Positions 3,232 through 55,545 of a DNA stretch of 64,000 nt are shown here, piece by piece (position 1 is the stretch's first letter; each line of letters opens with the position of its first letter). The DNA lies in the NCBI RefSeq assembly GCF_029714945.1, contig NZ_CP121634.1, forward strand, positions 8,329,001 through 8,393,000, given 5' to 3'. The notes beneath the pieces are model-generated. The model was given only the letters and a program-made list of their open reading frames with translations. It searched no databases and was not told the origin of the DNA. Position numbers and translations under genes: made by a program. The stretch is from Bradyrhizobium sp. CIAT3101. GTDB lineage: Bacteria; Pseudomonadota; Alphaproteobacteria; Rhizobiales; Xanthobacteraceae.

Positions 3232-3248
3232 AGCAACTGGCGTGCCAT
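3232..3248 (-). promoter_or_regulatory. sigma-54 promoter of nifQ
   Basis: Minus strand reads TGGCACGCCAGTTGCT, a perfect match to TGGCACG-N4-TTGCW. It lies about 100 bp before the nifQ start. Confidence 0.9.
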
Positions 3249-10124: not shown

Positions 10125-10141
10125 AGCAACCGGTGTGCCAT
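10125..10141 (-). promoter_or_regulatory. sigma-54 promoter of the nifB operon
   Basis: Minus strand reads TGGCACACCGGTTGCT, one base off the consensus, with GG-N10-GC spacing. It lies 50-66 bp before the chosen nifB start and decides that start. Confidence 0.85.
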
Positions 10142-23986: not shown

Positions 23987-24003
23987 TGCAACGAGCGTGC
24001 CAG
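23987..24003 (-). promoter_or_regulatory. sigma-54 promoter of nifHDKENX
   Basis: Minus strand reads TGGCACGCTCGTTGCA, a perfect consensus match, about 120 bp before the nifH start. Confidence 0.93.
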
Positions 24004-24063
24004 CGCTCGCTCAAAACAAATCACTATGCGAGCGTAGATAGATACCGGTGCACAGGGTGGTGC

Positions 24064-24079
24064 TGTCGCAAGTCCGACA
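24064..24079. promoter_or_regulatory. NifA activator site between nifH and the receiver gene
   Basis: TGT-CGCAAGTCCG-ACA is exact. It lies 64 bp above the nifH -24 and about 110 bp above the plus-strand element at 24189. Confidence 0.9.
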
Positions 24080-25735: not shown

Positions 25736-26575
25736 TCACACGTGTTGTCCCCCATTGATTGGCACTTCCGCACCTGTGACATAGCTCGCGGCGCTTGAGC
25801 AGAGGAAGAAAATGACCTTCGCAACCTCCTCGGGCGTGCCAACGCGGTGTAGCGGTATAATCGGCGCCAACTTTTCTTCAGTTTCCGGTGACAAAATGTC
25901 GGTCTTGATCTCGCCCGGTGCGATCGCGTTGACCCGAATTCCGAATGGCGCGTAGTCGTGTGCCATCTCGCGCGTGAGGCAGGCGAGCGCCGCCTTAGAG
26001 GTCGCATAGGCAGTACCCGCAAAAGGATGCACACGGGTGCCTACGATGGAGGTGACATTGACGATCGACCCGGATGCCATTTTCAATTCTTCGAACAGGC
26101 CTTGAGCAAGTAGAATCGGCGCGACCAAATTCACGTGAAACACGCTCATCCATGTGGTGATGGACGTCGTTAAAGAATTCAGCCTACCACCGCCTGGAGC
26201 CTTTGGAGAAATGGCGGCATTGTTGATCAGGGCGTGAAGCGGCTCTCCATCGAGCCGCTCCTTGATCTCGGCGATCGCGTGCGGCAACGCGCTGTGATCG
26301 CTCAGTTCCACTTGCACATGATTGTTGATTCCCGATTCCCATGGGCATCGACCGCTATCAAAGGGCTGTCGGGAGCAGGAGATGATTTGCCAACCAGCTT
26401 CGGAGAACAACTTGCCCGTGGCGTGACCAATGCCGCGCGAGGCGCCCGTCAATACAAGCGTCTTCCTTTGGCCAAGTCGCCCCTGCGACTTATCTTCTTG
26501 AAGCGGACAGCGCGCCAGACCAGGCACAGAGCTCGGACCAACAACACTGTGCGCATCCAGTTTATCGAGAGACAA
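25736..26575 (-). CDS. fixR: FixR, short-chain dehydrogenase/reductase
   Basis: A 279-residue SDR oxidoreductase matching FixR, the gene that usually precedes nifA in Bradyrhizobium. It has the NAD(P) motif LTGASRGIGHATG near residues 42-54, the NNAA segment (ALINNAAISPK), the catalytic serine region NVTSIVG and the YATSK motif (Y-x3-K). Its substrate is not known and it is dispensable for fixation in the model strain. Here nifA does not follow; the downstream gene is a ferredoxin. A sigma-54 promoter and NifA site lie upstream. Confidence 0.88.
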   Translation of the reverse strand: MSLDKLDAHSVVGPSSVPGLARCPLQEDKSQGRLGQRKTLVLTGASRGIGHATGKLFSEAGWQIISCSRQPFDSGRCPWESGINNHVQVELSDHSALPHAIAEIKERLDGEPLHALINNAAISPKAPGGGRLNSLTTSITTWMSVFHVNLVAPILLAQGLFEELKMASGSIVNVTSIVGTRVHPFAGTAYATSKAALACLTREMAHDYAPFGIRVNAIAPGEIKTDILSPETEEKLAPIIPLHRVGTPEEVAKVIFFLCSSAASYVTGAEVPINGGQHV

Positions 26576-26609: not shown

Positions 26610-26627
26610 TAGCAACAATTGGGCCAG
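26610..26627 (-). promoter_or_regulatory. sigma-54 promoter of fixR
   Basis: Minus strand reads TGGCCCAATTGTTGCT, with GG-N10-GC and TTGCT at -12. It lies 36 bp before the fixR start. Confidence 0.8.
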
Positions 26628-26660
26628 CCAGTTAAATGGCGATGGGTGCTCTCTGCCCAA

Positions 26661-26676
26661 TGTCAGCTAAGAGACA
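26661..26676. promoter_or_regulatory. NifA activator site upstream of fixR
   Basis: TGT-CAGCTAAGAG-ACA is exact, about 36 bp above the -24 element, closer than usual. From here to about 27040 I see no recognisable gene. Confidence 0.75.
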
Positions 26677-27441: not shown

Positions 27442-28755
27442 TCATTCGACCTTTGCTGCCTTGGCAAATATTTCGCGCGAAACCATCGGGATCGCGCCTC
27501 CGCGGGTCGGATCCGCGAACGTACCGCCCGCCGTAGCATAGTCCTTACCTGTGCGCCGCTCGAGTAGGATACCCATAGCTTCAACGTTTGGGATGTCCTT
27601 CTCGTTCAGCTCCGGCGTCAAGGCCTTACGGGCTAGTGCCGCCTCGATGTAGGGCGCCAGCTCCTCTTCTTTTTGTCGAACGCGCTCGTCTTCCCGTTCT
27701 TTAAGTGCGGGCATTACCTCGCTGGCAAACAGCTCGAGCGCTTCGCAGATATGTTCGTGCTTATTCAGTCCGCATTGTTGGATAAAGATCATCTGGTCGA
27801 TACCGACGTCGGCATAGCCCATGAGATGGTCACGAACGTCTTGGGGCCGGCCGATGCTTCCCGAGCCTGGCGTCTCTTTCACGTCATCCTTGATCGCTTG
27901 GAAGCGCCGCCATAAATTCGTGCGCCCAGGACGATGTTCGCCATAGATCGCGTAATGCGCGATCGAATATCCGAAGAACTTGAAGCCGTCGATACCACGA
28001 TGCATCGCTTCTTCGGCATTCTCGTGAACCATCATGCCGTTGAGTGTTGCGATATTGGCGTTCACCGAATGACCGATTGGCACGCATTCGTCGGACCTTA
28101 TCGTCTCATAATATTCGTCGCGCCAGATTTTCGCTTGGAACGGTTCGACGAACCCAAAAACCGGCGCTCCTACCCCGTGACGCGCGGCGCGCAAAATGCT
28201 CTCGCGCCGCGAACACGCCATCCAGAGCGGTGGGTGCGGCTTCTGTATCGGCTTTGGGACGATGTTGCGGGGCGGCATTTTGAAGAATTGCCCGTCGTAT
28301 CCAGGATACGGCCGCATCGCCATCATGTTGGCCGTCTGCTCGACGCCCTCGTACCACATGGCAGTCTTCTGGTCGGGGTCTATACCAAACCCATGCATCT
28401 CAATTAACGAGGCAGATGCTCCAGTCCCCCACTCGACGCGTCCTCCGGAGATCAGATCAAGCGTGGCGAGGCGCTCAGCTACCCGCGCTGGATGATTGTA
28501 GTGCGGCGGGGAAAGACAAATTCCGTGGCCAATTCGGATATTCTTTGTACGCTGCGAAACGGCACCTAGAAAGACTTCCGGTGCGGACGAGTGGGAGTAT
28601 TCCTCCAGGAAGTGATGCTCAACTTGCCAGATGAAATCGTATCCGAGCCGATCAGCGAGCTCGATCTGCTCCAAAGCATTTGCGAACAAATGTTCCTCGC
28701 CACCGTTTTCCCAAGGTTGCGGCAATTGGTGCTCATAGAACACTCCAAGCTTCAT
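27442..28755 (-). CDS. luciferase-like flavin-dependent monooxygenase (LLM class)
   Basis: A 437-residue flavin-dependent oxidoreductase of the bacterial luciferase family, using reduced FMN and oxygen. It has the family N-terminus KLGVFYEHQLPQPW, EQIELADRLGYDFIWQVEHHF, the core TLDLISGGRVEWGTG and HPPLWMACSR. The C-terminal 80 residues (KEREDERVRQKEEELAPYIE onward) form a charged helical extension. The substrate is unknown. A perfect sigma-54 promoter at 29028 and an exact NifA site lie upstream, giving a leader of about 260 nt with no other gene. Confidence 0.88.
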   Translation of the reverse strand: MKLGVFYEHQLPQPWENGGEEHLFANALEQIELADRLGYDFIWQVEHHFLEEYSHSSAPEVFLGAVSQRTKNIRIGHGICLSPPHYNHPARVAERLATLDLISGGRVEWGTGASASLIEMHGFGIDPDQKTAMWYEGVEQTANMMAMRPYPGYDGQFFKMPPRNIVPKPIQKPHPPLWMACSRRESILRAARHGVGAPVFGFVEPFQAKIWRDEYYETIRSDECVPIGHSVNANIATLNGMMVHENAEEAMHRGIDGFKFFGYSIAHYAIYGEHRPGRTNLWRRFQAIKDDVKETPGSGSIGRPQDVRDHLMGYADVGIDQMIFIQQCGLNKHEHICEALELFASEVMPALKEREDERVRQKEEELAPYIEAALARKALTPELNEKDIPNVEAMGILLERRTGKDYATAGGTFADPTRGGAIPMVSREIFAKAAKVE

Positions 28756-29027
28756 CTGTTTCCCTCCGTGGCGGAACGGTTGTAAATCGGTTGATATTTT
28801 TCAGATGTGATACTGCCCTCGCGCCGTCGATCACCACAGGGGGCACCACGTAACCGAATGTTCGGATCTACTTCACAATTCTCGTCCCCACGAAGCGTTG
28901 CTGCCGTTGTTCAAGCTGACGAGAAGTTGGACTTGGCAGGGCGTCGTCCGGACGGCGAGTTTTTGCGTCTGAACTCCCGCCAGCGAGTGTAGCAAGGCTA
29001 TTGTCGTGACGGCTCTTACTGTCTACG

Positions 29028-29044
29028 AGCAATGTGCGTGCCAT
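29028..29044 (-). promoter_or_regulatory. sigma-54 promoter of the monooxygenase
   Basis: Minus strand reads TGGCACGCACATTGCT, a perfect consensus match. The predicted start of transcription is near 29017. Confidence 0.88.
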
Positions 29045-29114
29045 GTCGTACAAGCCCCTAATTGAAGAAAAGAAGGCAACGATTTGCGTCGACCGGCGAA
29101 GAAGTTTCACGCTA

Positions 29115-29130
29115 ATGTCGTGTTTCCGAC
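29115..29130. promoter_or_regulatory. NifA activator site for the monooxygenase
   Basis: TGT-CGTGTTTCCG-ACA is exact, 73 bp upstream of the -24 element. Confidence 0.85.
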
Positions 29131-29379
29131 ATGAAGTTCTTTGACGGAGATAAGCATGACGATGCGAGCATCGAAGTCTGATGATATTGTATGTCGCCCT
29201 CGGGCCGACGCGGACGCGGTCGATCATCATTCACGACTGAATTGCCGACGGTGCGTTTCAAAGTAAAATAGGGAAGCCGCTAAGGTGCAGGTTCACAAGG
29301 CTTGAATGAGCAGCGCATCCAGGTGAGTCCAGCGCCCAGATTAGACAGCCTGACGCTAGCCTAACGAAGAGAGAGCATT

Positions 29380-30363
29380 GTGCGACTGTTCTTGATGTAC
29401 GTCGTTCTGGCCGGGTGCTTCCACCTCTCGGAGGCACATGCTGAGAGACTTTTGGTTTCGCAATCCGGCCATATGGGGTATCGCTCCCTCCAGGAGGCGG
29501 TAGACGCATTGCCCCCTCGAGGCGGAGACATTTTGGTCGCGCCGGGCATCTATCGCGAGAAGGTCAAGGTTGCCAAGCTTGGCGTTCACATCAGAGGCGG
29601 CGGCGAGAAGCCGCAGGACACGGTGGTCGTCTACGGTGACGGCGCCATCAAAGTGGGCGGAACCGTTCACTCCGCCACCATGGAAGCATCAGGCGATGAC
29701 TTCCGGCTCGACAATATCACAATACAAAACGACTATTCGTTAGATCCGGCCAATCCGCCGTCGCAGGCCGTTGCGCTGTCTGTTACCGGAGACAAGGACG
29801 TTATCACTCGCGTCCGCCTGCTCGGCGCACAGGATACACTATTCGCTAACAAAGCGCCGAACGGCCGAACAACACGGCAATATTTTTCGGACTGCTACAT
29901 TGAGGGACATGTCGACTACATATTTGGCAACGCCAAGGCCTATTTCCAGCGTTGTGAGCTGCACGGCATCGCCAACCAGGCTGTGGTCTATACAGCACAA
30001 AGCAAAGACGCGCCGGACGAAGACAGCGCCTACGTTTTCGACCATTGCACCCTGACCGCCGATCGCGCCGCGCATGGCATCGCCCTTGGCCGACCTTGGC
30101 GCTCTTACGCTACCGTAATCTTTTTATCCACCCGGATGAATGCGCCGGTGATCGCCGAGGGCTGGAGCGAGTGGGATCGCGCCAAGACCAACAGGCTGAA
30201 GACCGCTTACTATGCCGAATACCAATCAACCGGTATCGGCGCCAATCCCAAAGGACGAGAAGCTTATTCCCATCAGCTGACCGACCAGGAGGCGAAGCAA
30301 TGGTCGCTCAAAGCGTTCTTTGCTGATGACACGAATTGGCTGCCGAACCCTCCATCAAGATAG
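29380..30363 (+). CDS. secreted pectinesterase (CE8)
   Basis: Removes methyl esters from plant pectin. The 327-residue protein starts at GTG 29380 after GAGAGAG, with a signal peptide (MRLFLMYVVLAGCFHLSEAHA). It has the pectinesterase marks GYRSLQEAVDALP, GAQDTLFAN near residue 149, YIEGHVDYIFGNAKAYF near residue 174 with both catalytic aspartates, and LGRPWRSYA near residue 238. It converges with a polygalacturonase, together forming a pectin-degrading pair that could aid root infection. Confidence 0.92.
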   Translation: MRLFLMYVVLAGCFHLSEAHAERLLVSQSGHMGYRSLQEAVDALPPRGGDILVAPGIYREKVKVAKLGVHIRGGGEKPQDTVVVYGDGAIKVGGTVHSATMEASGDDFRLDNITIQNDYSLDPANPPSQAVALSVTGDKDVITRVRLLGAQDTLFANKAPNGRTTRQYFSDCYIEGHVDYIFGNAKAYFQRCELHGIANQAVVYTAQSKDAPDEDSAYVFDHCTLTADRAAHGIALGRPWRSYATVIFLSTRMNAPVIAEGWSEWDRAKTNRLKTAYYAEYQSTGIGANPKGREAYSHQLTDQEAKQWSLKAFFADDTNWLPNPPSR

Positions 30364-30582: not shown

Positions 30583-31905
30583 CTATTGGGGCACGCTGCC
30601 GATCGTGCGTTTGCTGGGCGTTTTGAAGAATGCCTTTGCACAACCTTCCCATACGCTAGACGACACTCGGCCTTGGCCATCCCGCAAAGGCGGCCACACG
30701 CCTGAACCTACCACATTCGCATTTTCCACCTGCCAAGTCGCACTTTCGGCAAATCGCACATCCTCCAGCTCAATCTCAAGCGGATGGGCTAGATCGAGTC
30801 CGTGCATCACCAGCGCACCATCACCGCCACGCACGTGGCGCAGAGCGATCTGTCGGTATACCGGAATTTCGTCACCGTGCGCCTGGGGATCATAGCGTGT
30901 ATCGAAATAAATAGGCCATCGGTTGTTCCGCAGGCATACGTTCTCATAGGTGACCCTCTCCACTAGTCCACCCCGGCTGACGTCACTCTTAATGCGCAGG
31001 CCGGACGTCGTGCCGTCCAGGGTCAGGCCGTGCACCAGTATGTCGCTGACACCTGAGCTAATCTCACTACCGATCGACATGCCGTGCCCCCAGCCGAAGT
31101 AGTTGTCGATAATGGAAACATAGCGAACGGGACCATTGGTTCCGGCTTTGATAGCCACATTGTCGTCTCCAGTACGGATCTTACAGTGAGCAATTGTCAC
31201 ATCTTGGCTGGCGCCAGGATCGATGCCGTCTGTATTGCGAGCATCCGCCGGTGTATCGATTGTGACGCCCCAAAACGTCGCACCTTCGACCCGGTTCATC
31301 GCCACGTGGAAATTGGGCGCATTGCGCAGTGTGATGCCATGGAAGGTAATGTCCTGGGCACGGTCGACCTGGATGAGGCGCGGGGCGTTCTGGTTGCCAC
31401 CTTCGGTTTGCGCGCGCCGTGCCAGTTGCCACCAACTCTCGCCGGCGCCGACCATGAGCGCGCCGCCCTGGCCGTCGATGATACCATCGCCATAGATGCC
31501 GCCTCCCCGTGTTTTGAAGAAGCTAATGAATGGCCGGCAGCCGTCGCCCTTGCCTCCGATGCGACCACAATTTCCCGAGCCTTTGTCATAGGCCTTCGGC
31601 TGCGCGAGAGCGATAAGCGTGGCGTCATGCTCGATCCATAGCATCACTCCGGATTTCATCTCGAGAGGGCCTGAGAGGAAGATACCGCCCGCCAAATAAA
31701 CCGCCGATCCAGCGGGGCAGTGGGCCATGGCATCTTGCAGCCTATCAGTGACGCTTTCGCTCGATGGCGCCAGCCGGGCACAGATACGGCTAGGTGCGAC
31801 GGGCTCGGAGACATTACGGCGATCCCTGGCTTGTGCAAGGCCCACGACAGCAATCATCGACAGCAAGGCGCAATAGTGCAAACGGACCAACACACCAACT
31901 CTCAT
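30583..31905 (-). CDS. secreted polygalacturonase (GH28)
   Basis: Cuts de-esterified pectin. The 440-residue protein has a signal peptide (to about residue 26, GLAQA) and all four GH28 motifs: ARNTDGIDPG near residue 225, GDDNVAIKAG near residue 250, GWGHGMSIGSE near residue 275, and SGLRIKSD near residue 305. It faces the pectinesterase tail to tail, 220 bp apart. The two enzymes would act one after the other on plant cell wall. Confidence 0.93.
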   Translation of the reverse strand: MRVGVLVRLHYCALLSMIAVVGLAQARDRRNVSEPVAPSRICARLAPSSESVTDRLQDAMAHCPAGSAVYLAGGIFLSGPLEMKSGVMLWIEHDATLIALAQPKAYDKGSGNCGRIGGKGDGCRPFISFFKTRGGGIYGDGIIDGQGGALMVGAGESWWQLARRAQTEGGNQNAPRLIQVDRAQDITFHGITLRNAPNFHVAMNRVEGATFWGVTIDTPADARNTDGIDPGASQDVTIAHCKIRTGDDNVAIKAGTNGPVRYVSIIDNYFGWGHGMSIGSEISSGVSDILVHGLTLDGTTSGLRIKSDVSRGGLVERVTYENVCLRNNRWPIYFDTRYDPQAHGDEIPVYRQIALRHVRGGDGALVMHGLDLAHPLEIELEDVRFAESATWQVENANVVGSGVWPPLRDGQGRVSSSVWEGCAKAFFKTPSKRTIGSVPQ

Positions 31906-32039: not shown

Positions 32040-33866
32040 TTATTCGACGGTCACGGATTTGGCGAGGTTGCGCGGCTGGTCGACATCGGTGCCCATCACA
32101 ATGGCCGTGTGGTAAGCGAGTAGTTGCACCGGGATAGCATAGATCATCGGCGTGAAGGCGTCCGCCATGTCAGGCATGATGATGGTGGCGAGCGAATCGA
32201 CCGTCGCCTCCGCCGCGCCTTTGGCGTCCGTCATCAGGATGATATTGCCGCCGCGGGCCGCGACCTCCTGCATGTTGGAGACCGTCTTCTCGAACACGCG
32301 ATCATGGGGCGCAATCACCACCACCGGCATGGTCTCGTCGATCAGCGCGATCGGTCCATGCTTGAGCTCGCCGGCTGCATAGCCCTCGGCGTGGATGTAG
32401 GAGATCTCCTTCAGCTTCAGCGCGCCTTCGAGCGCGAGCGGGAAGCTGGTGCCGCGGCCGAGATAGAGCACGTCGCGCGACTTAGCGATCCTGTGCGCCA
32501 GTTTCTCGATCTGCAATTCGGTGGTCAGCGCGTCTGCCATCAGGCGCGGGATCTCGACCAGGCCGTGCACAAGCTTGGTCTCCTCCTCCTCGGACAATTC
32601 GCCGCGCGCCTTGCCGGCCACGACCGCGAGCGAGGCGAGCACCATGAGCTGGCAGGTGAAGGCTTTTGTCGACGCGACGCCGATCTCGGGACCGGCGAGC
32701 GTCTGGAGCACCGTCTCACTTTCGCGCGCGATCGTCGAGGTCGGCACGTTGACGACGGCGAGCGTGTGCGCGCCTTCGGCCTTGGCATAGCGGAGCGCGG
32801 CGAGCGTGTCAGCGGTCTCGCCCGATTGCGAAATGAAGATCGCCAGATCGCCCTTGCGCAAGGGAGATTCGCGGTAGCGGAACTCGGAGGCGACATCGAC
32901 CTCGACCGGCAGGCGCGCTATTCGCTCGAGCCAGTATTTTGCGACATAGCCGGCGTAGCTCGCCGTGCCGCAGGCCGTGATGGTGATGCGCTGGATGTCG
33001 CGGAACTCGAACGGCAGCCTCACCGGCAACGACACCCGCTCGGAAGCCATGTCGACATAGCGAGCCAGCGTGTGGCCGACGACCTCGGGCTGCTCGTGAA
33101 TCTCCTTCGCCATGAAGTGGCGATAATTGGCCTTGTCGACCAGCGAGGTCGGGGCCGCATGCTTAATCTTGTCACGCTGGGCGGCACGGCCGTCCTTGTC
33201 GAAGATCGCAACGCTGTTGCGGGTCAGCACGACCCAATCGCCGTCCTCGAGATAGCTGATCGTATCGGAGAACGGGCCAAGCGCGATCGCGTCCGAGCCC
33301 AGGAACATCTCACCATCGCCGTAGCCGACCGCCAGCGGCGGACCGTTGCGGGCGCCGATCATCAGATCGCCCTCGCCGGCGAAAATGAAGCCGAGCGCGA
33401 ACGCGCCGCGCAGCCGGCTCAAGGCGAGCTTCACCGCCTCGACCGGCTTGTTGCCGCGCGTTAAGAGATCGTCGACAAGGTGCAGCACGATCTCGGTGTC
33501 GGTCTCGGTGCGGAACACCGTACCCCTCGCTTCGAGCTCCTCACGCAGCTCGCGGAAGTTCTCGATGATGCCGTTGTGGACGACCGCGACGCGCTCGGTG
33601 GTGTGCGGATGGGCATTGTGCTCGGTCGGCTTGCCGTGGGTGGCCCAACGGGTGTGGCCGATGCCGCTCCTCCCCTTCAGCGGCCTGTCACGCAGCCGCG
33701 CCTCGAGGTTCTTCAGCTTGCCTTCGGCGCGGCGGCGCTCCAGGTGATCGCCTTCGAGCGTAGCCACACCCGCGGAATCGTAACCGCGATATTCAAGCCG
33801 CTTGAGCGACTCCACCAATTGCTCTGCAACCGGCCGGCGCCCGAGAATGCCGATAATCCCGCACAT
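32040..33866 (-). CDS. nodM: glutamine-fructose-6-phosphate aminotransferase (GlmS/NodM)
   Basis: Makes glucosamine-6-phosphate for cell wall and Nod-factor backbone. The 608-residue protein starts at MCGIIGILG (33866) so that the catalytic cysteine is residue 2 after Met removal; the frame begins three codons earlier. It has HTRWATHG, HNGIIENF, the SIS domains with CGTASYAG and SQSGETADT, and the C-terminal end DQPRNLAKSVTVE. It is clearly richer in G+C than its neighbours, as if copied recently from the core genome. Whether it is the housekeeping glmS or a symbiotic nodM cannot be settled here. Confidence 0.9.
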   Translation of the reverse strand: MCGIIGILGRRPVAEQLVESLKRLEYRGYDSAGVATLEGDHLERRRAEGKLKNLEARLRDRPLKGRSGIGHTRWATHGKPTEHNAHPHTTERVAVVHNGIIENFRELREELEARGTVFRTETDTEIVLHLVDDLLTRGNKPVEAVKLALSRLRGAFALGFIFAGEGDLMIGARNGPPLAVGYGDGEMFLGSDAIALGPFSDTISYLEDGDWVVLTRNSVAIFDKDGRAAQRDKIKHAAPTSLVDKANYRHFMAKEIHEQPEVVGHTLARYVDMASERVSLPVRLPFEFRDIQRITITACGTASYAGYVAKYWLERIARLPVEVDVASEFRYRESPLRKGDLAIFISQSGETADTLAALRYAKAEGAHTLAVVNVPTSTIARESETVLQTLAGPEIGVASTKAFTCQLMVLASLAVVAGKARGELSEEEETKLVHGLVEIPRLMADALTTELQIEKLAHRIAKSRDVLYLGRGTSFPLALEGALKLKEISYIHAEGYAAGELKHGPIALIDETMPVVVIAPHDRVFEKTVSNMQEVAARGGNIILMTDAKGAAEATVDSLATIIMPDMADAFTPMIYAIPVQLLAYHTAIVMGTDVDQPRNLAKSVTVE

Positions 33867-33997
33867 GCGGATCAATATCCCCCGATCTTTGAAAAGTTGA
33901 CTCTCACTTCCGCGTCACTGTTTTGCGACACTCGATTGCCTGCGCTAACATTTAAGTTAGACGCGCCCGCTGTCGGACCAGTTACTCTCATGTGTTT

Positions 33998-41707: not shown

Positions 41708-43183
41708 ATGCAGAAATTTCCATTCGATACAGTTCTGATCGCCAACAGGGGCGAGATCGCCGTCCGTATCCTGAAGACCTTGCGACAGTTGGGCTTACGT
41801 TCAGCTGTCGTCTACCACGATGTGGATGCGGCCACACCAGCCGTTGCCATGGCGGATACAGCAATCGCGATCGAGGGCTCTTCCCCAATTGCTGCCTATC
41901 TTGACGCCGAGCAAATCATCGCCGCCGCCCGCAGAGCTAACGCCGGCGCGTTGCATCCTGGCTATGGGTTCTTGTCGGAGAGCGCCGATTTTGCGAGAGC
42001 CGTCGCAGGGACCGGCATTGCATTCGTCGGGCCAGCCCCCGAAAGCATCGAGCTGATGGGTGATAAGATCCGCGCCCGGAGATTTGCTCAGCAGATCGGA
42101 TTTCCGGTAGGCCCCTCAGTTATCGAAGAAGACGAACCGGAAACCTTCGCATCCAGAGCTCGGGCCCTTGGCTTACCTTTGCTGGTGAAGCCTTCGGCAG
42201 GCGGTGGTGGCAAGGGCATGCGGATCGTGCGCGATCTCGACACCCTCGACGACGCAATTGCTCAAGCTGGACGCGAGGGGCTGCGCTACTTCGGAGATAG
42301 CCGCCTGTACGTGGAGCGCTATGTTGAGAAACCGCGCCACATCGAAGTGCAGGTGCTAGGCGATTTCTTCGGAAATGTCGTCCACCTGTTCGAACGCGAG
42401 TGCTCGGTACAGCGCCGCTTTCAGAAGATCATCGAGGAGACGCCTTCGCCTGCCCTATCCGTAGAATTGCGGGAACGGGTCTGTGAAATGGCGGTCGGCA
42501 TCGCTCGTAGCGCCAACTATCGAAATGCAGGAACCGTCGAATTTATCTTTGATGGACAAGAGTTCTACTTCCTTGAGATGAATACTCGGCTTCAAGTCGA
42601 GCATCCCGTGACTGAAATGGTCACTGGCGTCGATCTCGTTGCCCAACAGCTCCATATCGCCGCGGGGCACGAACTCACATTTTCGCAATCCGACATCGTC
42701 TCCAAAGGTCATGCAATTGAAGCGAGGCTATACGCCGAAGCCCCTGAACGCGAATACGCGCCAACCACCGGCAAGATTCTCATGTTGGAGTACCCAGAAT
42801 GCGACGGCGTGCGCATCGATAGCGGTATCGTCCAAGGTCAGCAGATCACGCCCGCATTTGATTCGATGCTCGCAAAAGTCGTCGCACATTCAACTACACG
42901 CCGTGAAGCCGCATTGAAGGCGGCACATGCGATGCGACAGCTAGTTCTTCTTGGCTGCGAGACGAACGCCGACTTTCTGGCCCGCCTGCTCATGGACGAC
43001 ACATTTTTGAGCGGCCAGATCCATACCGGTTATCTCGATGAACATCCGCACCTGGCCAAAGGCCCATGTGGAAGCGACCTGCCCGCCATTTTGGCAGCCG
43101 GAGCACTCCTGACAAGGAGCGTTCGGAATTCGGCAGACGCCGTGCCCAGGCTTCACGCGGAGCTCGGCAAGTGGAGAAACTGA
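41708..43183 (+). CDS. accC: biotin carboxylase subunit of an acyl-CoA carboxylase
   Basis: A 491-residue ATP-grasp biotin carboxylase that loads CO2 onto biotin. It has DTVLIANRGEIAVRILKTLRQLG, LHPGYGFLSES, PLLVKPSAGGGGKGMRIV near residue 160, ECSVQRRFQKIIEE and NTRLQVEHPVTEMVTG near residue 295. It lacks a fused biotin domain; that is encoded by the next gene one base further. Together with the 43.7-kb transferase this forms a three-gene methylcrotonyl/propionyl-CoA-type carboxylase. Confidence 0.92.
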   Translation: MQKFPFDTVLIANRGEIAVRILKTLRQLGLRSAVVYHDVDAATPAVAMADTAIAIEGSSPIAAYLDAEQIIAAARRANAGALHPGYGFLSESADFARAVAGTGIAFVGPAPESIELMGDKIRARRFAQQIGFPVGPSVIEEDEPETFASRARALGLPLLVKPSAGGGGKGMRIVRDLDTLDDAIAQAGREGLRYFGDSRLYVERYVEKPRHIEVQVLGDFFGNVVHLFERECSVQRRFQKIIEETPSPALSVELRERVCEMAVGIARSANYRNAGTVEFIFDGQEFYFLEMNTRLQVEHPVTEMVTGVDLVAQQLHIAAGHELTFSQSDIVSKGHAIEARLYAEAPEREYAPTTGKILMLEYPECDGVRIDSGIVQGQQITPAFDSMLAKVVAHSTTRREAALKAAHAMRQLVLLGCETNADFLARLLMDDTFLSGQIHTGYLDEHPHLAKGPCGSDLPAILAAGALLTRSVRNSADAVPRLHAELGKWRN

Positions 43184-43184
43184 C

Positions 43185-43688
43185 GTGAAGCACTGTTTTG
43201 GGCTCAATGACGAGAACTATGAATTGTGGCTTTCACCTGGCCAACACGACTATCGCCTTCACTTGGGCGATGAGGTAATTGCGCCGGTGGCACTCTCAGA
43301 TCATTTAGACGGAAGCGCTCACCTTGTCATTGCAAGCGAGGCCGTGCCGGTCAGATTTGCAATCGAAGGTGACACACTTCACCTGCATATCCGTGGCAGG
43401 ACACACATCCTGCGATACCGCGATCCATTGCGAGAACTTGGGAGCTCGGACGAGCAGGCAAGTCATCTTGTGGCCCGCGCGCCAATGCCCGGCGTCGTGA
43501 TTGCGATCGCGGTTTGCCACGGTGATGTGGTCTGCGCAGGCGCGACGCTGATGGTGGTCGAGAGTATGAAGTTGGAAGTTGTCGTACGTGCCCCTCGTGG
43601 CGGTGTAATCGAGCGCATTCACTTTGGTGTAGGCGAAAGCTTTGAGCGAGGCGTGGTTTTGGTTACGTTTTCCGAGGAAGGGCGCTGA
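43185..43688 (+). CDS. biotin carboxyl carrier protein
   Basis: A 167-residue carrier. The C-terminal half is a biotinyl domain: ARAPMPGVVIAIAVCHGDVVCAGATLMVVESMKLEVVVRAP, where the lysine in ESMKLE carries biotin. The N-terminal half resembles the linker domain of three-subunit acyl-CoA carboxylases. It starts at GTG 43185 right after the carboxylase stop and is one base from the transferase start, so the three genes are one operon. Confidence 0.88.
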   Translation: MKHCFGLNDENYELWLSPGQHDYRLHLGDEVIAPVALSDHLDGSAHLVIASEAVPVRFAIEGDTLHLHIRGRTHILRYRDPLRELGSSDEQASHLVARAPMPGVVIAIAVCHGDVVCAGATLMVVESMKLEVVVRAPRGGVIERIHFGVGESFERGVVLVTFSEEGR

Positions 43689-43689
43689 C

Positions 43690-45297
43690 ATGCAGCGGAT
43701 CGTCTCTCGGGTGGACACCACGTCGCAAGAATTTCGTCTCAACGAGCTCCATAACCGACGACTTGCGGCCGAACTGAAGGAACGACAGCGTTCCGCTCGC
43801 TTCGCTCGACCCGCGAGAGACCTTAAGCGTCTGCGGCAGCAAAACAAGCTCTTCGTTCGCGATCGGATCGATGCGCTGCTTGATCCAGAAACTCCATTTC
43901 TCGAGCTATCAACGCTCGCGGGCAACAAGGCCTACGATGGTGAGGTGCCAGGCGCAGGGCAGATTGTCGGCGTTGGCATTGTTGCTGGTCGCGAGGTCAT
44001 CGTTCACGCGGATGATGCCAGCGTGAAGGGCGGCGCTTGGTATCCGTTATCCGTCAAGAAAATTGTGCGGGCGCTGGACATTGCAATCGAGAACCGTCTT
44101 ATGGTGGTGCATCTTTGCGACTGCGCCGGCGGCTTCTTGCCTCTGCAAGCGGAATTCTTCGCAGATCGCTACCACGCAGGCCGAATCCTGCGTAATCAAT
44201 CAATTCTCTCAAAGATGGAAGTGCCGCAGGTAGCCATCGTCATGGGCCACTGTACTGCAGGAGGTGCCTACGTTCCGACGCTGAGCGATTACAACATCAT
44301 CGTGCGGGGGAATGGAGCCGTCTTTCTCGGCGGACCTCCGGTCGTAAAGGCCGCCACCGGAGAAGTGGTATCAGCCGAAGAGCTCGGTGGCGCTGAAATC
44401 CATACGAGCGTGTCGGGAGCGAGTGACTACCTCGCTACAAGCGAAATGCATGCGATTGCCATCGCGCGGGACATTGTCGCTCACATGAAGCGTCCAACGA
44501 AAGAAGCCGTTAATCGGGCCGCTCCGGAGCTTCCCGTCTACGGCGCATCTGAGCTATACGGCATTATTCCAAAAGATCCCCGCGTTCAATTTGACATTCT
44601 GGAGATCATCGCTCGCCTCGTGGATGGTAGCCGGTTCCATGAGTATCAGCCTAGCTATGACCAAAGCCTGATATGCGGTTTCGCGCGTCTTCAAGGTTAT
44701 CAAATCGGGATTGTTGCAAATAATGGCGTGCTGCAGAACCACAGTGTTCTGAAGGGCGCTCACTTCATCCAACTCTGCGATAAGAACCGAACGCCATTGC
44801 TCTTCCTGCAGAATACCACTGGCTTTATGGTCGGACGAGAATACGAACATGATGGCATCACCAAGAATGGCGCCAACCTCATCATGGCCGTTGCCGCAGC
44901 GTCGGTCCCCAAACTTACAGTGATCTGCAACGCCTCTCACGGAGCAGGAACATTCGCTATGGCGGGTCGCGCGTTCGACCCCCGCTTTATGTTTACCTGG
45001 CCGCAATCGCAGATTTCGGCCATGGGCGCGGAGCAAGCGGCAGGCGTACTCACCCATGTCAAAGCAAAGCAATTGGCTCGTGAAGGAGGGCGCTTGTCGG
45101 ACCAAGAACTGGCAGCCATTCGAGAACCAATTATGAAGGAGTATCGGGCGCGATCAAGCGCCTATTATGCGACTTCGGAGCTTTGGGATGACGGCATTCT
45201 TGATCCCGTAGATACCCGAAACGCGCTCTCAATCGCCTTAAGCGCGTCGCTTAATGCTCCAATCGAATCGCCCCACTACGGTGTCTTTCGAATGTAG
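43690..45297 (+). CDS. acyl-CoA carboxylase carboxyltransferase (methylcrotonyl-CoA type)
   Basis: A 535-residue carboxyltransferase closest in pattern to the methylcrotonyl-CoA carboxylase beta chain. It has FVRDRIDALLDPETPFLELSTLAG, MGHCTAGGAYVPTLSDYNIIV, GGPPVVKAATGEVVSAEELGGA, LFLQNTTGFMVGREYEHDGI and GAGTFAMAGRAFDPRF. I use the ATG at 43690 following GAAGG; the frame starts 48 bp earlier inside the carrier gene. The acyl-CoA it works on is uncertain. Confidence 0.9.
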   Translation: MQRIVSRVDTTSQEFRLNELHNRRLAAELKERQRSARFARPARDLKRLRQQNKLFVRDRIDALLDPETPFLELSTLAGNKAYDGEVPGAGQIVGVGIVAGREVIVHADDASVKGGAWYPLSVKKIVRALDIAIENRLMVVHLCDCAGGFLPLQAEFFADRYHAGRILRNQSILSKMEVPQVAIVMGHCTAGGAYVPTLSDYNIIVRGNGAVFLGGPPVVKAATGEVVSAEELGGAEIHTSVSGASDYLATSEMHAIAIARDIVAHMKRPTKEAVNRAAPELPVYGASELYGIIPKDPRVQFDILEIIARLVDGSRFHEYQPSYDQSLICGFARLQGYQIGIVANNGVLQNHSVLKGAHFIQLCDKNRTPLLFLQNTTGFMVGREYEHDGITKNGANLIMAVAAASVPKLTVICNASHGAGTFAMAGRAFDPRFMFTWPQSQISAMGAEQAAGVLTHVKAKQLAREGGRLSDQELAAIREPIMKEYRARSSAYYATSELWDDGILDPVDTRNALSIALSASLNAPIESPHYGVFRM

Positions 45298-45493
45298 CCT
45301 TGCGGTTCGCGCGCAGCGAGTTGGGCACAGTTTGACTACGATCCGTCGCGCTGACGCTGACTTCACACGTCGGAGAGCTGCAACTCTAGTCGAGCTTTCC
45401 ACTCCACCCGACGCGCTACTCCCTTCGGCGGAACGCACTTATTTCCACCGACCCGAAACCAGTAACAAGCTGACACCTGCCGAAGTCCCGCCC

Positions 45494-45748
45494 ATGCAAT
45501 GCCCGAAATGTCATGCCAATGATCAAAACGTGTCACATGATCCCTGGAGCGGTCGCCCTGTGATCGCCTGTAAAGCCTGCGGCGACTTTGTTGAGAACGA
45601 GTTGATCGAGCGCGAAAGAGCATACGCCATCATCACCGGAGTCGTGGCATCTCACTTGATTGGCGAGCACAAGGGTGGCGCTCAGCGCGTCGCATGCGAG
45701 ATCCTCGAAGCTCTTAAGAGTGCCGGCATGACGATTCATCGCGCCTGA
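45494..45748 (+). CDS. small zinc-ribbon protein
   Basis: An 84-residue protein beginning MQCPKCHANDQNVSHDPW and IACKACGDFVENELIER: two CxxC pairs, a zinc ribbon, followed by a helical half (AYAIITGVVASHLIGEHKGGAQRV). The ATG at 45494 is chosen because the ribbon starts right there; the frame upstream to 45254 looks non-coding. It lies between the carboxylase operon and the ParA-like gene. Function unknown. Confidence 0.6.
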   Translation: MQCPKCHANDQNVSHDPWSGRPVIACKACGDFVENELIERERAYAIITGVVASHLIGEHKGGAQRVACEILEALKSAGMTIHRA

Positions 45749-46073
45749 CTCGCTGAAGCTCGCCGTAGACGACGATTGATTGATCAACTTAGCCGCGGCA
45801 AGGCCATCTACCATGATGGCTTCCGTAATCCCCAACTGAAGAGAACGTTCTGATGGCAATCAAAACATACAAACTCCAACATGAACCGAGCTACGCGCGC
45901 TTCCCTGACCGTAATGGATCGCACCATCGGCGACTATAGCGTCTGTCGATGTTTCGAAAATCGGACGATCTCCTCCTTTGGCCATCGTAGTGTCGAAGGC
46001 AGGACTGGAAACACACAGACGACGCGCTTCGCGGTCGCGTGGATTGAAGAACAAGCATCTTGAGAGGACTTCT

Positions 46074-46823
46074 ATGGGCAAGCCAGTTGTAATTGTGGTC
46101 GGCGCGGACAAAGGCGGGGTCGGAAAAACGACCGTATCTCGCACGCTTTTGGATTATTTTAGCGCGAATAATGTGCAAACCCGCGCATTCGATACCGAGT
46201 CGCCTCGCGGGACACTGAAGCGCTTTCACCCTGCGATTACCGAAATCGTCGACATGACGAGAACCGCGGACCAGATGAAGATCTTCGATACGCTGAACTC
46301 GGGCCTGTCCGTCACGGTCATCGACGTTCGAGCCGGACTGATGTCACCAGCCCTGGCGTCCCTACGAGACATCGGCTTTTTGGACGCCGCCCGATCTGGC
46401 CAACTCACCTTCGCCGTGTTTCATGTGTTGGGATCGTCCATCGCCTCGCTAGACGAGATCGCGGAAACAAGCGATTTCATGGGGGGCGCAAAATACTTCC
46501 TGGTCAAGAACTTCATCAACGACACCCAGTTCTTTCAGTGGGATCAGTCGACCTACAATTCCTACTTCAACCGCATCAAAGACGCCACTGATCTGACCAT
46601 CCCGAAACTTAACGAGATGGCCTATGAACAGGTCGAGGTCGCCTCTGTTCCGTTCGTCAATTTCGTTGCGAACAAGGGACAACACGAGGACGCCGCGAAC
46701 TTCTCGTTTGTGTTGCGCGGTTACGTACGGCACTGGCTTGCCAATGTCTGGAGCGAGTATGACCGGATCAACCTAACAGACCTCGCGGGCGCGAAGTCGG
46801 TGACCCGTGCGGGCGAAAGATAG
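46074..46823 (+). CDS. ParA/MinD-like P-loop ATPase
   Basis: A 249-residue ATPase with the deviant Walker A motif ADKGGVGKTTVSRTLL near residue 12. An aspartate in AFDTESPRG near residue 40 stands in the Walker A-prime strand position. The start at 46074 has GAGAGGA before it; a longer frame begins at 45978. The C-terminal half (IPKLNEMAYEQVEVASVPFVNFV) is not from a known ParA. No parB or centromere repeats are seen, so chromosome partition is unlikely. It is followed 14 bp later by a second P-loop protein. Confidence 0.75.
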   Translation: MGKPVVIVVGADKGGVGKTTVSRTLLDYFSANNVQTRAFDTESPRGTLKRFHPAITEIVDMTRTADQMKIFDTLNSGLSVTVIDVRAGLMSPALASLRDIGFLDAARSGQLTFAVFHVLGSSIASLDEIAETSDFMGGAKYFLVKNFINDTQFFQWDQSTYNSYFNRIKDATDLTIPKLNEMAYEQVEVASVPFVNFVANKGQHEDAANFSFVLRGYVRHWLANVWSEYDRINLTDLAGAKSVTRAGER

Positions 46824-46837
46824 CCGCTTGCGGACCC

Positions 46838-47527
46838 ATGCGCACTGGTTTGGCGATTTTGCCCACCCCCGTCTACATCATCTGCTCTGCAAGCCCGCAG
46901 GTCGGAAAGACACTGATTGCTCGGCTCTTGAGCGAATTCTTGCTGCTGAAGAACGGTGCGGTGCTCTCCTTCGACATCAACCTAAGGGAGCCGTCCTTGC
47001 TCGACTATCTCCCTTCCATCACAGAGACAGCGGATGTCACGGATACCTATGGCAAAATGCAGCTAGTTGATCGACTTGTTCTAAACGACGGAGTGGCCAA
47101 GGTGATCGACCTTGGCTTCCACGCATTCGACGAGTTCTTCAAGATGTGTGGCGAGATCGGCTTCCTGAGCGAGGCGATACAACAAAGGGTCGTACCAATC
47201 GTGCTATTCGTAGCGGATACTGACCGTGTCTCGGCCCGTGCGCATGAAATGCTGCGGCGGCTGATTCCGACGCAAATTCTGATCACCGTCCATAACGAAT
47301 TCTTCGTCCGCGGCGACTTGTTCGAGGCCATGAACCAGGGCCGCGTCATCCGTTTGGCGGCACTGCCGGTATTTCTACATAACTACATCTGCCGACTAGG
47401 CCTGTCTTTCACCGGCTATCTACGCCATGAGAGGGACCCTACGTCGGAACTTCATCAGTGGATTCGGCAGAATTACACGATTTTTCGCAATATCGAAATG
47501 AGCGTGATCCCCCAATGGTCGTCTTGA
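46838..47527 (+). CDS. second P-loop ATPase, paired with the ParA-like gene
   Basis: A 229-residue protein with a P-loop variant (CSASPQVGKTLIARLLSEF near residue 18) and SFDINLREPSLLDYLP, mirroring the TESPRG part of its neighbour. It lacks the usual glycine run before GKT. It starts 14 bp after the ParA-like gene, so both are one operon. Likely a diverged partner; role unknown. Confidence 0.65.
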   Translation: MRTGLAILPTPVYIICSASPQVGKTLIARLLSEFLLLKNGAVLSFDINLREPSLLDYLPSITETADVTDTYGKMQLVDRLVLNDGVAKVIDLGFHAFDEFFKMCGEIGFLSEAIQQRVVPIVLFVADTDRVSARAHEMLRRLIPTQILITVHNEFFVRGDLFEAMNQGRVIRLAALPVFLHNYICRLGLSFTGYLRHERDPTSELHQWIRQNYTIFRNIEMSVIPQWSS

Positions 47528-47800
47528 CGCAGAACACAGGTCGTCCGAAGGCGGGAATTGGAGTCGATCTGTTGCGAGGATCTAGAAATTGTAGGTGTGC
47601 CTAATACCTCTGATCCCAAACGCGGGTATAGCCAAATTCACTCGCACGATTGCGTCTCAGCTCGAACACTTTGGCATGCAGTTTAGGTGCATTCGCCTGA
47701 GCGGCGTAACACCGGTCACGTCCTTTAACGGGTGCTGACACGCATCGGCCCCGCGAATGAGGGCGAGCCGTCTCGGGACCTACGACACAGGGAATGATAA

Positions 47801-49336
47801 GTGAATCTCTCCACATTGATTGAGCGCAATGCAGCGTTCGCTCCTACCAAAGCTGCGATCAATTTTGAGGGCCGCACCTTAAGTTACGCCGACCTTAATG
47901 GACGCATCGGCCAGGCTGCACAAGCTCTACAAAGTGCGTTTGGCGTCAAGAGAGGCGACCGCGTCGCCATCCTGAGCCTCAACCGCCCCGAATATCTAGT
48001 TCTCCTCTACGCTTGTGCCCGGCTCGGGGCGATATTGGTTCCGTTGAATTGGCGATTGGCGGTGGCCGAGCAGCTTTTCATCCTGTCCAACGTTGGTGCT
48101 AAGGTTCTGGTCCTTGAGCAGGCTTTCGAAGCGGTTCTGCCGATTTTGTTGGATACACTGCCCGATATTGCAACCGTAGGCTTCGGCTTTGCGTCTTGCA
48201 GTGCGTGCACATGGGAAGGCTTGTTGGATCAAACAGCGGGAGACAGCTGCGATTCCTGCGCAGGCCTGGCCGACCCACTTCTGATCGTCTACACGTCAGG
48301 CACCACTGGCCGGCCGAAGGGAGCGGTGCTGCGCCAGGAGGCCTTGCTCTGGAATGGCGTGATGAGTCAACACATGCACGCCCTGACACCCGACGATCAT
48401 GTGCTGACCGTCTTGCCGTTATTCCACGTCGGTGGGCTCAACATTCAGACGACGCCTGCACTACATCTCGGCGCGACTGTCACGATCCATCCGCGCTTTA
48501 CGACTGAGGCTACCCTTGCCGCGCTAAAAGATGACCGCCCCACTTTGACCGTCCTGGTGCCTGCGACCATCCAGGCCTTGACCGACGATCTCACGTGGTC
48601 CAGTACCGATCTTTCATCACTGAAGGCGATTTCCGTCGGCTCAACGACGGTGCCGCAGTATTTGGTTGATCGCCTGGTTGCCCGCCGCGTGCCGGTCCTC
48701 CAGGTTTACGGCTCCACGGAGACGAGCCCCATTGCGATTTATACAAGGCTTGGCGGAGACCTTTCGCGGAAGGGCTCGACCGGCCTGCCCGGGCTATGCT
48801 GTGAAGCTGTTGTCATGGATGATGCCGGTAATGAGCCGCCCGCAGGGACTCCCGGTGAGATCGTTGTACGCGGGCCCAACGTTTTGCAGGAATATTGGGG
48901 CAATCTTCCCGCCACGCGCGAGGCTATGCATGACGGGTGGTACCGTACGGGCGACATCGCCCGTCGCGACGCCGACGGATACTTCTGGGTCCATGACCGT
49001 AAGAAAAACCTGATCATTTCCGGTGGAGAAAACATCTATCCGGCGGAGGTCGAGCGCGTACTTTTGGAGCATCCTGATGTTGCGGAATGCGCTGTGATCG
49101 GTCGACCCGATCCCCAATGGGATGAGGTGCCGATAGCCTATGTGATCAGGCGGCCCGGATCCCGTATAGACGCGGGAACACTCATAACGCATGTGCGATT
49201 GCATCTTGCGCGCTTCAAGGCTCCGCGCGAAATTCTCTTTACGGAGGAATTGCCTAGAACGGCACTGGGCAAGGTTCAGCACGCTATACTCAAAAGACTG
49301 GATTCTCGATTAGATAAAAAGGATTTCGGCGACTGA
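47801..49336 (+). CDS. AMP-forming acyl-CoA ligase
   Basis: A 511-residue adenylating enzyme that joins an acid to CoA. It has the ATP motif YTSGTTGRPKGAVL near residue 165, VYGSTETSPIAIY, GWYRTGDIARRDADGYFWV near residue 380, and the C-terminal KKNLIISGGENIYPAEVE with the catalytic lysine in PRTALGKVQH. It starts at GTG 47801 after GGGAATG. The acid is not clear. Its place downstream of a biotin carboxylase suggests a shared acyl-CoA route. Confidence 0.85.
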   Translation: MNLSTLIERNAAFAPTKAAINFEGRTLSYADLNGRIGQAAQALQSAFGVKRGDRVAILSLNRPEYLVLLYACARLGAILVPLNWRLAVAEQLFILSNVGAKVLVLEQAFEAVLPILLDTLPDIATVGFGFASCSACTWEGLLDQTAGDSCDSCAGLADPLLIVYTSGTTGRPKGAVLRQEALLWNGVMSQHMHALTPDDHVLTVLPLFHVGGLNIQTTPALHLGATVTIHPRFTTEATLAALKDDRPTLTVLVPATIQALTDDLTWSSTDLSSLKAISVGSTTVPQYLVDRLVARRVPVLQVYGSTETSPIAIYTRLGGDLSRKGSTGLPGLCCEAVVMDDAGNEPPAGTPGEIVVRGPNVLQEYWGNLPATREAMHDGWYRTGDIARRDADGYFWVHDRKKNLIISGGENIYPAEVERVLLEHPDVAECAVIGRPDPQWDEVPIAYVIRRPGSRIDAGTLITHVRLHLARFKAPREILFTEELPRTALGKVQHAILKRLDSRLDKKDFGD

Positions 49337-53727: not shown

Positions 53728-55545
53728 TCACAGGCGCTTAATTTCGATGCAATATTTCCTCAGTGCGTATCCGATTTGGCGCGGTGTGAGTCCGAGTAGG
53801 CGCGCCGCCTTTGCCTGCACCCAGCCAGCTTTCTCCATGGCAGCAATGAGGCGCTCGCGATCCGTCAGCTTGCCACCGCTCAGGATGCCTCCATCGACCG
53901 GCTCAGCCGCGACAGGCGGACCCAGGACCGCAACCGGCGTTGCTGCCTCAGGTGTTGGCGTAACTGCCGTGGGGGTTAACTCACCGATCAGCGCGGCCCG
54001 AGGCTTCGCTTCATCCAATCCGCTCTTCCACAGCAGCGCGGAAAGGCATTGACCATGGCAGCAGGCAAAATCGTTCCTGACGATGAATGGCCCCGGCGCC
54101 AGTGTAGCCGTCCGTTGCACGCAATTCTCGAGTTCACGCACATTGCCTGGAAATCCGCAATTCATTAGCACGTCTAAGGCACTCTGATCGAACGTCAATG
54201 TACGACTGTTCTTGCAGTTGAAGTTCTTGAGAAACTCAGCGGCAAGCAGCGGAATATCGCTGCGCCTTTCGCGCAAGGGAGGCAGCATCAACGGAACTAC
54301 GCTAATACGATAATAGAGATCAGCGCGAAACTCGTTCTTTGTGACCGCCCCTTCCAGGTCCTTGTTGGTTGCAGCAATCACTCGGACGTCAACTTTCATC
54401 GTGTGGCCGCTACCCACCCGCTCAAACTCTTGCTCCTGAAGAACCCGCAACAACTTCGCCTGAAAAGCCCCTGAGATCTCGCCAATCTCGTCTAGAAAAA
54501 GGGTTCCCTTGTCGGCTAGTTCGAAGCGCCCTTTGCGCGAATTAAGGGCGCCGGTAAAGGCTCCTTTTTCATGGCCGAACAATTCGGATTCCAGGACGGT
54601 CTCGGGCAGCGCCGCGCAGTTCATTTTGATGAACGGCCGTTTTGCACGCGGGGATAGCTCGTGAATTGCCTTGGCCACCAGCTCCTTGCCGGTGCCTGAT
54701 TCACCTCGGAGCAGAACCGTGGCATTTGACCTGGCTACCACCGCGATCTTGTCGAGCAACCCGCGGAGTGCCGGACTGGTACCGATAATACCATCGATGT
54801 GAACCTTTTTACGCTCACGCGCTGGCTGCTTGAATTCGAGTAGCTCCTTCTGCCACCGGTAGCTCTCCGCCATGAGGCGCTTGCGGTCGCGCGCGACCAA
54901 GCGATGGAGCTTCACCGCCTGTCCAATCAGGTTTGCGATCATGGTGAGTAGCCTGACATCGCAATCGAGTGGGAACATCGAGTCCAGGTCGGGCACACGC
55001 TCAATAGATAGGGTGCCAACGACCTTTTCATCAATGCTTATGGGAACCCCAATGAACGATAATCGCATGTGGTCGGACGCACCGAGCACATCCAGGTCAG
55101 CTGCGCTAAATGCGGGATGCTTGGCGATGTCTTCAGCGACAAACGGCATGCCCGTTGTCACAATCTCCTCAATCGCCATTTGCGGTAGGCGCATGCGGTA
55201 GCGTTCATCGCTTCCTTCGCTCCACCCAGCGCCAACCGCAATCTCGGGTTCGTCATCGTCCGCTAGGAGAGACACGACACCGTGCCGCATCTGCAAAGAC
55301 GACTGCAGCAAATCGATGACGTTTGCCAGCGCGACTTCGAGTCGCGAAGGACTGGCGAGCATGTTCGATATTTCGAACACTCCTCTGAGCGCAATTTCGT
55401 TCACCGGCAAGACCACGGGATCGTTCGAGCCTTCTTCAGGGCCGTGCCATTCGCATTCGGACTCACTCTGCACCTTGACAAGTTCGACGCCGCCCTTGCT
55501 CTCTTTGCTTGCAGTTAGTTCGCACTTCGAAACATCGTCTTGCAT
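53728..55545 (-). CDS. nifA: NifA, sigma-54 activator of nif/fix genes
   Basis: A 605-residue regulator, the length of Bradyrhizobium NifA. Domains: N-terminal GAF near 60-215; AAA+ ATPase near 250-480 with GESGTGKE (281-288), the sigma-54 contact loop GAFTGA (328-333) and LFLDEIGE; C-terminal Fis-type HTH near 575-600. The inter-domain cysteines C463, C475, C495 and C500 give C-x11-C-x19-C-x4-C, the oxygen-sensing signature of rhizobial NifA. It is not next to fixR here, and I find no sigma-54 promoter directly upstream. Confidence 0.96.

Follow-up and report, generated by a model that had tools for sequence, protein, structure and literature searches.

A luciferase-like flavin monooxygenase gene behind a predicted NifA/sigma-54 promoter in nodulating Bradyrhizobium

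Genes for oxygen-using enzymes that depend on NifA have been described on the symbiosis island of Mesorhizobium loti R7A. According to Table 4 of PMC3538637, lacZ fusions to msi332 (a P450) and msi280 (an L-lysine 6-monooxygenase) gave 447 and 372 Miller units in nodules but 15 and 7 Miller units without nifA2, against a background of 5–10. Both genes have NifA/-24/-12 promoters. The same source describes NifA sites together with -24/-12 promoters, as well as NifA promoters joined to nif-gene fragments; msi332 comes after a nifQ fragment, so that its promoter, too, looks captured. A NifA-driven monooxygenase is therefore not new in kind, and the original prediction overstated the matter in calling an oxygen-using enzyme switched on with nitrogenase unexpected. 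Compared to the locus studied here, in Bradyrhizobium sp. CIAT3101, the M. loti genes differ in encoding unrelated enzyme families and in that their NifA dependence was measured (PMC3538637). The Bradyrhizobium gene encodes a luciferase-like (LLM class) flavin monooxygenase. The reading that we favour, with middling confidence, is a single-gene symbiotic accessory function: a monooxygenase driven by NifA and sigma-54, derived from a catabolic cluster and most likely carrying out Baeyer–Villiger oxidation of a ketone.

LLM proteins have surfaced in several studies of rhizobia. As reported in PMC9927474, an LLM gene of B. guangxiense is NolA-regulated; it need not be an orthologue of the gene studied here, since no B. 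guangxiense record was among the 40 loci of our LLM homologue search and CIAT3101 itself carries another LLM gene close to nodA. Elsewhere, the dmoA entry for RpoN in strain DOA9 carries a poor sigma-54 motif (PMC13207237), an LLM changed in M. huakuii bacteroids (PMC3973600), and blr7289, 'luciferase family', appears in a soybean-nodule list (PMC8632152). PMC4999443 makes no mention of an oxygenase, flavin or luciferase. A literature search, which covered few subscription journals and had the classical B. japonicum NifA/RpoN regulon papers outside its scope, returned no report of a NifA-controlled LLM.

The monooxygenase gene, its promoter and its surroundings

The window, the whole 64,000-nt stretch of DNA that was analysed, spans positions 8,329,001–8,393,000 of a 9.37-Mb single-contig genome. 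It contains nifV, nifB, nifS, nifH, two nitrogenase-component genes, nifA, nodZ (56770–57756) and two carbamoyltransferase genes (58025–60076 and 61928–63649, both on the minus strand), which we take to be NodU-like. The nodA nearest to the LLM gene begins 39 kb off. Between the LLM gene and the nodulation side lie genes for a pectinesterase (29380–30363, plus strand), a family-28 glycosyl hydrolase (30583–31905, minus strand) and a GlmS/NodM-like protein (32040–33875, minus strand), and relatives of these genes also flank the LLM gene in two orthologous loci (L009 and L010). Further along, a plus-strand cluster at 41708–49336 comprises biotin carboxylase, carboxyltransferase and AMP-binding genes. 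The second LLM gene (342 aa; L129, 8404600–8408000 of the genome contig) stands about 10 kb past nodA, convergent with a flavin-reductase gene (170 aa); the pair is flanked by genes for a HisC-like aminotransferase on one side and a TrpC-like protein on the other, both named by eye.

Table 1. Coordinates of the monooxygenase gene, its upstream elements and two reference features in the window
Feature	Position	Strand	Basis
LLM class flavin monooxygenase gene, 437 aa	27442..28755	-	ORF, Pfam, orthologues, predicted structure
Ribosome-binding-site-like GGAGGG	28762..28767	-	sequence, by eye
Predicted leader, 262 nt	28756..29017	-	start inferred from -24/-12 box
-24/-12 (sigma-54) box TGGCACGCACATTGCT, exact	29028..29043	-	no mismatch vs TGGCAC-N5-TTGCW
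NifA-type upstream activator site TGTCGGAAACACGACA, exact	29116..29131	-	no mismatch vs TGT-N10-ACA
nifA ORF, expected activator	53728..55545	-	nifA model match 53731–55392, 750.9 bits, above cut-off
nifH promoter, same-window comparison	23987..24079	-	box 24002–23987, NifA site 24079–24064

The LLM reading frame starts at an ATG just 3' of GGAGGG, and this start is common to the orthologues. Judged by the consensus forms TGGCAC-N5-TTGCW for the -24/-12 box and TGT-N10-ACA for the NifA site, the perfect sigma-54 promoter, the exact NifA site and the leader of about 260 nt (counted from a predicted +1 at 29017) announced by the original prediction are all present, the outer base of the NifA site falling one base past the end, 29130, of the interval given there. 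An Rfam search near the LLM gene, leader included, gave no match at E up to 1.

Exact -24/-12 cores number five in the window, every one on the minus strand, and in shuffled 700-bp upstream regions an exact core arose in 7 of 5200 trials. TGT-N10-ACA occurs 15 times in the window against 7.66 expected, a count reached in 2 of 100 shuffles, and a NifA site by itself is weak evidence for control. Paired with a -24/-12 box at 58–88 bp, the NifA site is found six times in the 9.37-Mb genome, whereas the backwards control gave no hit. The pairs all fall within 0.51 Mb (8.353–8.863 Mb); one of them is nifH, where the gap is 61 bp, compared to 72 bp at the LLM gene.

Three of the other exact cores (3232–3247, 1789–1804 and 10125–10140, minus strand) adjoin nif genes; for two of the three, no exact NifA site lies within 180 bp. 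The four further paired sites are at 8494, 8752, 8765 and 8863 kb (L118–L121). Judged by eye, the frames that follow resemble genes for a beta-keto acid cleavage enzyme and a hydroxyacyl-CoA dehydrogenase at L118, a broken P450-like gene at L120 and a glyoxalase/VOC-like protein at L121.

Conservation, descent and dispersal of the promoter

Orthologues were taken to be the 26 Bradyrhizobium loci with at least 78% identity to the window's LLM; the closest named match, in Bradyrhizobium stylosanthis BR 446, is 97% identical at the protein level. Of the 26, which are related by descent and are not independent observations, 23 have an exact -24/-12 core in the 700 bp upstream. The exceptions are one locus (L078) with a single mismatch and two intact orthologues (L075 and L080) with no core in that interval. 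Over the same 700 bp, no exact core was found at any of 20 loci outside Bradyrhizobium or at five more distant homologues. The core is kept even though its spacing from the start codon ranges between 132 and 533 nt. Of the 23 core-bearing promoters, only 6 have an exact NifA site, at 72 or 80 bp; in the rest the site is degenerate. Conservation thus lies in the sigma-54 box, and a perfect NifA site is a feature of the window's lineage and a few more. The original interpretation holds in part. Of the control that it predicted, the sigma-54 part and, in the window's lineage, the NifA part find good support in both sequence and conservation: the LLM gene is very probably under sigma-54 and, in this lineage, NifA.

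Strong NodA matches were present in 139 of 265 Bradyrhizobium genomes (163 had any match, and 24 with E above 1e-10 were left out). These 139 genomes account for all 26 orthologues; the remaining 126 have none (Fisher p 1.6e-8, relatedness ignored). The LLM gene and nodA share a contig in 14 genomes, with the nearest nodA 39–208 kb away, and lie on separate contigs in the remaining 12. An LLM homologue of 58–60% identity occurs in 11 further Bradyrhizobium genomes without a strong NodA match, and no core was seen upstream of it in the four of these that were checked. A twelfth genome, G195, is nodA-positive and carries LLM DNA 80% identical to the window's gene and 83% identical to that of L010, with a core upstream; it is thus a decayed symbiotic relic, a 27th copy. 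At the level of sequence, then, the original observation is confirmed as real, conserved and linked to nodulation genomes.

In a tree, the 19 symbiotic LLM sequences included form one clade (support 1.000), and no single outsider is picked out as nearest to it. Comparison of the window's gene with 17 Bradyrhizobium orthologues gave dN/dS values of 0.07–0.11, and a further six pairs, drawn from inside and outside the clade, gave 0.07–0.13. Two shallow pairs had higher values, namely the window with its very close relative L009 (0.24) and L012 with L014 (0.35). The LLM gene is under purifying selection, with dN/dS of about 0.1. The reading frame is open over its full length in 23 of the 26 copies. 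The three broken ones have one stop (G262), one stop and a short match (G176) or a short match (G050). The G+C content is 0.56–0.58 in five symbiotic LLM genes, compared to 0.61–0.64 in four genes from the catabolic cluster described below.

The LLM promoter region of one orthologue, L012, matches other places in related genomes at 65–73%. A 281-bp query made from one copy of this repeat (L107–L117 and others) found matches in 18 of 27 chosen genomes, namely 16 of 21 that bear the LLM gene (the LLM promoter itself often being among the matches) and two of six others, with up to 10 matches in a single genome (G163). Neither a match to this query nor a second copy of the window's own leader was found in the window's genome. 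Since its own leader is single-copy, the window's tie to the repeat runs only via orthologues such as L010. The repeat copies stand before different genes. Eight of the nine copies read share a short frame starting MK(L/R)(A/T/V)R(L/S)IQI, as in the small conserved reading frame MKLARLIQINA, and the ninth stands before a hydrogenase-small-subunit-like gene (named by eye). In G191 a repeat copy is followed by a further, decayed 5' portion of the LLM gene, with 70% identity across 370 bp. The repeat pattern and this partial copy fit promoter capture; in M. loti, NifA promoters are joined to nif-gene fragments (PMC3538637).

A perfect FNR/FixK-like palindrome, TTGATCCAAATCAA, was also seen in 14 of 15 leaders read that exceed 500 nt and in one of nine dispersed exact-core promoter copies from related genomes. 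The palindrome is absent from the shorter leaders, the window's included, and overlaps the start of the small conserved reading frame. We do not claim FixK control.

Promoter capture might also have left a gene of little use, driven by NifA but merely caught behind a spreading promoter element and slowly being lost. The promoter repeats, the three broken copies, the G195 relic and the decayed second promoter and gene copy in G191 would all fit such a fate, as would the finding in PMC9927474 that deletion of the B. guangxiense LLM gene, which may not be an orthologue, had no effect on peanut or mung bean. We nevertheless consider this unlikely, given a dN/dS of about 0.1 across deep divergence and the large majority of full-length copies.

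Enzyme family, relatives and likely chemistry

The protein matches Pfam PF00296 (Bac_luciferase) with an E of 7.5e-44 and 150.8 bits, well above the curated cut-off of 27.9, and an AlphaFold2 model built from 45 aligned sequences (pLDDT 87.5) has as its best structural matches, among the best 50, LLM proteins including RslO1 and LuxA. Family and fold thus bear out the assignment to the luciferase-like flavin monooxygenases. RslO1 (7bip) is also the best solved structure by sequence (89.8 bits). RslO1 and LuxA resemble the window's LLM in fold, at 25% and 19–20% identity, but serve antibiotic biosynthesis and light emission. Among the best 25 of 28 matches to NCBIfam LLM sub-families (SsuD, DmoA/NtaA, SfnG, F420 and others), none was above its cut-off.

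The closest relative of known chemistry that we found belongs, by sequence, to a group of steroid (progesterone) type II Baeyer–Villiger monooxygenases (BVMOs). According to PMC12239570, the progesterone LLM of Caenibius tardaugens shows Baeyer–Villiger activity in crude extract and is 88% identical to a Novosphingobium homologue. We equated that homologue with SARO_RS18845 on Novosphingobium plasmid pNL2 through its plasmid, HTH neighbour and MKFSIIYE start, not through a locus tag. SARO_RS18845 is 32% identical to the window's LLM over residues 1–352 (190 bits), and the two share the LLM class and stretches such as SAPE and PKP.Q.PHPP. Neither the C. tardaugens gene nor the window's has a dedicated flavin reductase adjoining; 12 flavin-reductase-domain matches occur in the window's genome, one about 50 kb away beside the second LLM gene. 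In contrast to the gene studied here, that of C. tardaugens is induced by progesterone in a steroid degrader and is not NifA-controlled (PMC12239570).

Closer in sequence are the LLMs of 11 loci outside Bradyrhizobium, 76–81% identical to the window's, in an IclR/LLM/SDR/LivK catabolic cluster of Mesorhizobium, Aquibium and Methylocapsa. The same SDR gene directly follows the LLM gene in all 11. Nine of these loci were gene-called, and protein families were tested on representatives only. The order in eight of the nine is LLM, SDR, periplasmic binding protein, SMP-30/gluconolactonase-like protein, ADP-forming acyl-CoA ligase and SnoaL-like protein; the ninth (L023) retains LLM, SDR, binding protein and SnoaL-like protein. 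A divergent IclR-type gene and an upstream acyl-CoA dehydrogenase gene are each present in eight of the nine. These clusters differ from the window's locus in that the partners are present and the LLM gene has no sigma-54 core within 700 bp. The clade of symbiotic copies lacks these partners. None stands beside the window's LLM gene, which is not a member of such a cluster, and the genome's best match to the cluster's acyl-CoA ligase (39%) is about 630 kb off. More distant homologues are found near acyl-CoA enzymes in Halomarina. The plasmid records searched with the LLM gene gave no DNA-level match, and the best tblastn match was in Halomarina (56%).

An SDR gene near the LLM gene (25736–26575, minus strand) was considered as a cluster partner, loose clustering having grouped the two SDRs, and was rejected by direct search: its matches were L011, L009, its own locus and one generic SDR at 30% (L031), with no cluster SDR. 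This gene has a sigma-54-like box of its own, TGGCCCAATTGTTGCT, at 26626–26611, with an exact TGT-N10-ACA only 34 bp upstream (promoter span 26611–26676). L009 keeps both box and site, but L011 has an altered box and has lost the site.

The cluster around the relatives favours oxidation of a specific carbon compound, and its SDR, lactonase-like and acyl-CoA ligase genes, together with the progesterone LLM relative, favour a ketone. Oxidation of a ketone is our best guess at the reaction, the 32% identity being too low to fix reaction or substrate. Of the roles suggested originally, use of a plant compound or production of a signal may apply; the carbon compound may also be a bacterial one. If the LLM instead tailored a signal or secondary metabolite that bacteria make in the nodule, it would have a parallel in homologues of 46–51% identity beside polyketide synthases in two Streptomyces plasmids. 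We hold this role to be distinctly unlikely, since the closer relatives sit in catabolic-type clusters and no biosynthetic cluster adjoins the LLM gene in the window.

Less probable still is that the protein is an F420- or flavin-dependent dehydrogenase and not a monooxygenase. Its best NCBIfam match among those listed is the F420 sub-family TIGR03619 and F420-dependent Mer is among the structural matches, but no F420 model reaches its cut-off (89.2 bits against 166.9 for TIGR03619), and the sequence is closer to the type II BVMO homologue and RslO1. Sulfonate use, suggested originally, would mean SsuD-like desulfonation for sulfur supply. SsuD belongs to the same superfamily and SsuD/MsuD structures are among the fold matches; with two alkanesulfonate monooxygenase (SsuD) models scoring 34.6 and 39.5 bits where 518 and 510 are required, and with an acyl-CoA ligase and a lactonase-like gene in the relatives' clusters, we regard it as very improbable. 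Oxygen consumption as the purpose, protecting nitrogenase, is scarcely credible: expression alongside nitrogenase would fit and nothing else was found in its favour, whereas a substrate-dependent monooxygenase with conserved pocket-type residues would make a poor oxygen sink and the relatives outside symbionts lie in catabolic clusters.

A proposed role in the nitrogen-fixing state

If the gene serves a single-gene accessory function, as we favour, NifA would in the nitrogen-fixing state bind the upstream site and activate sigma-54 polymerase at the -24/-12 box, so that monooxygenase and nitrogenase are produced at the same time. Reduced FMN would come from a flavin reductase that the cell already has, and the enzyme would use FMNH2 and O2 to place one oxygen atom into a small organic substrate, most likely by Baeyer–Villiger oxidation of a ketone as in a type II BVMO, perhaps to the benefit of the symbiosis. 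The gene would have descended from a catabolic cluster like those of Mesorhizobium and Aquibium, entered a symbiosis region once, in an ancestor of today's copies, been placed behind a NifA promoter and then been kept without its cluster partners. Counting against this accessory function are the small share of exact NifA sites, the core-less orthologues L075 and L080, the single mismatch in L078, the broken copies and the G195 relic, the two higher dN/dS pairs, the low identity to the BVMO homologue and the below-cut-off F420 match. Nodules also hold very little free oxygen.

A more ambitious version can be put forward tentatively. In one set of nodulating Bradyrhizobium, the enzyme, as a two-component flavin BVMO, might belong to the nitrogen-fixing state as a dedicated component switched by NifA, converting a host or bacterial ketone (for example isoprenoid or steroid-like) in the micro-oxic nodule. 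Its recruitment might be due to a dispersed NifA-promoter element through which other metabolic genes, too, come under nitrogenase control. The chances of this version are slightly lowered because most such genes are dispensable in M. loti.

With this gene, the likely NifA regulon of nodulating Bradyrhizobium gains a conserved and testable oxygen-using enzyme. A catabolic gene appears to have moved once to nitrogenase-type control, and so to have been rewired in a way that poses a testable substrate question. The dispersed promoter element in related strains offers a concrete route by which symbiosis regions may recruit metabolic genes. Retention of the gene in related nodule bacteria hints at some chemical task in nodules that has gone unrecognised; should the substrate prove to be a ketone of plant or bacterial origin, an exchange of chemicals specific to nodules would be indicated.
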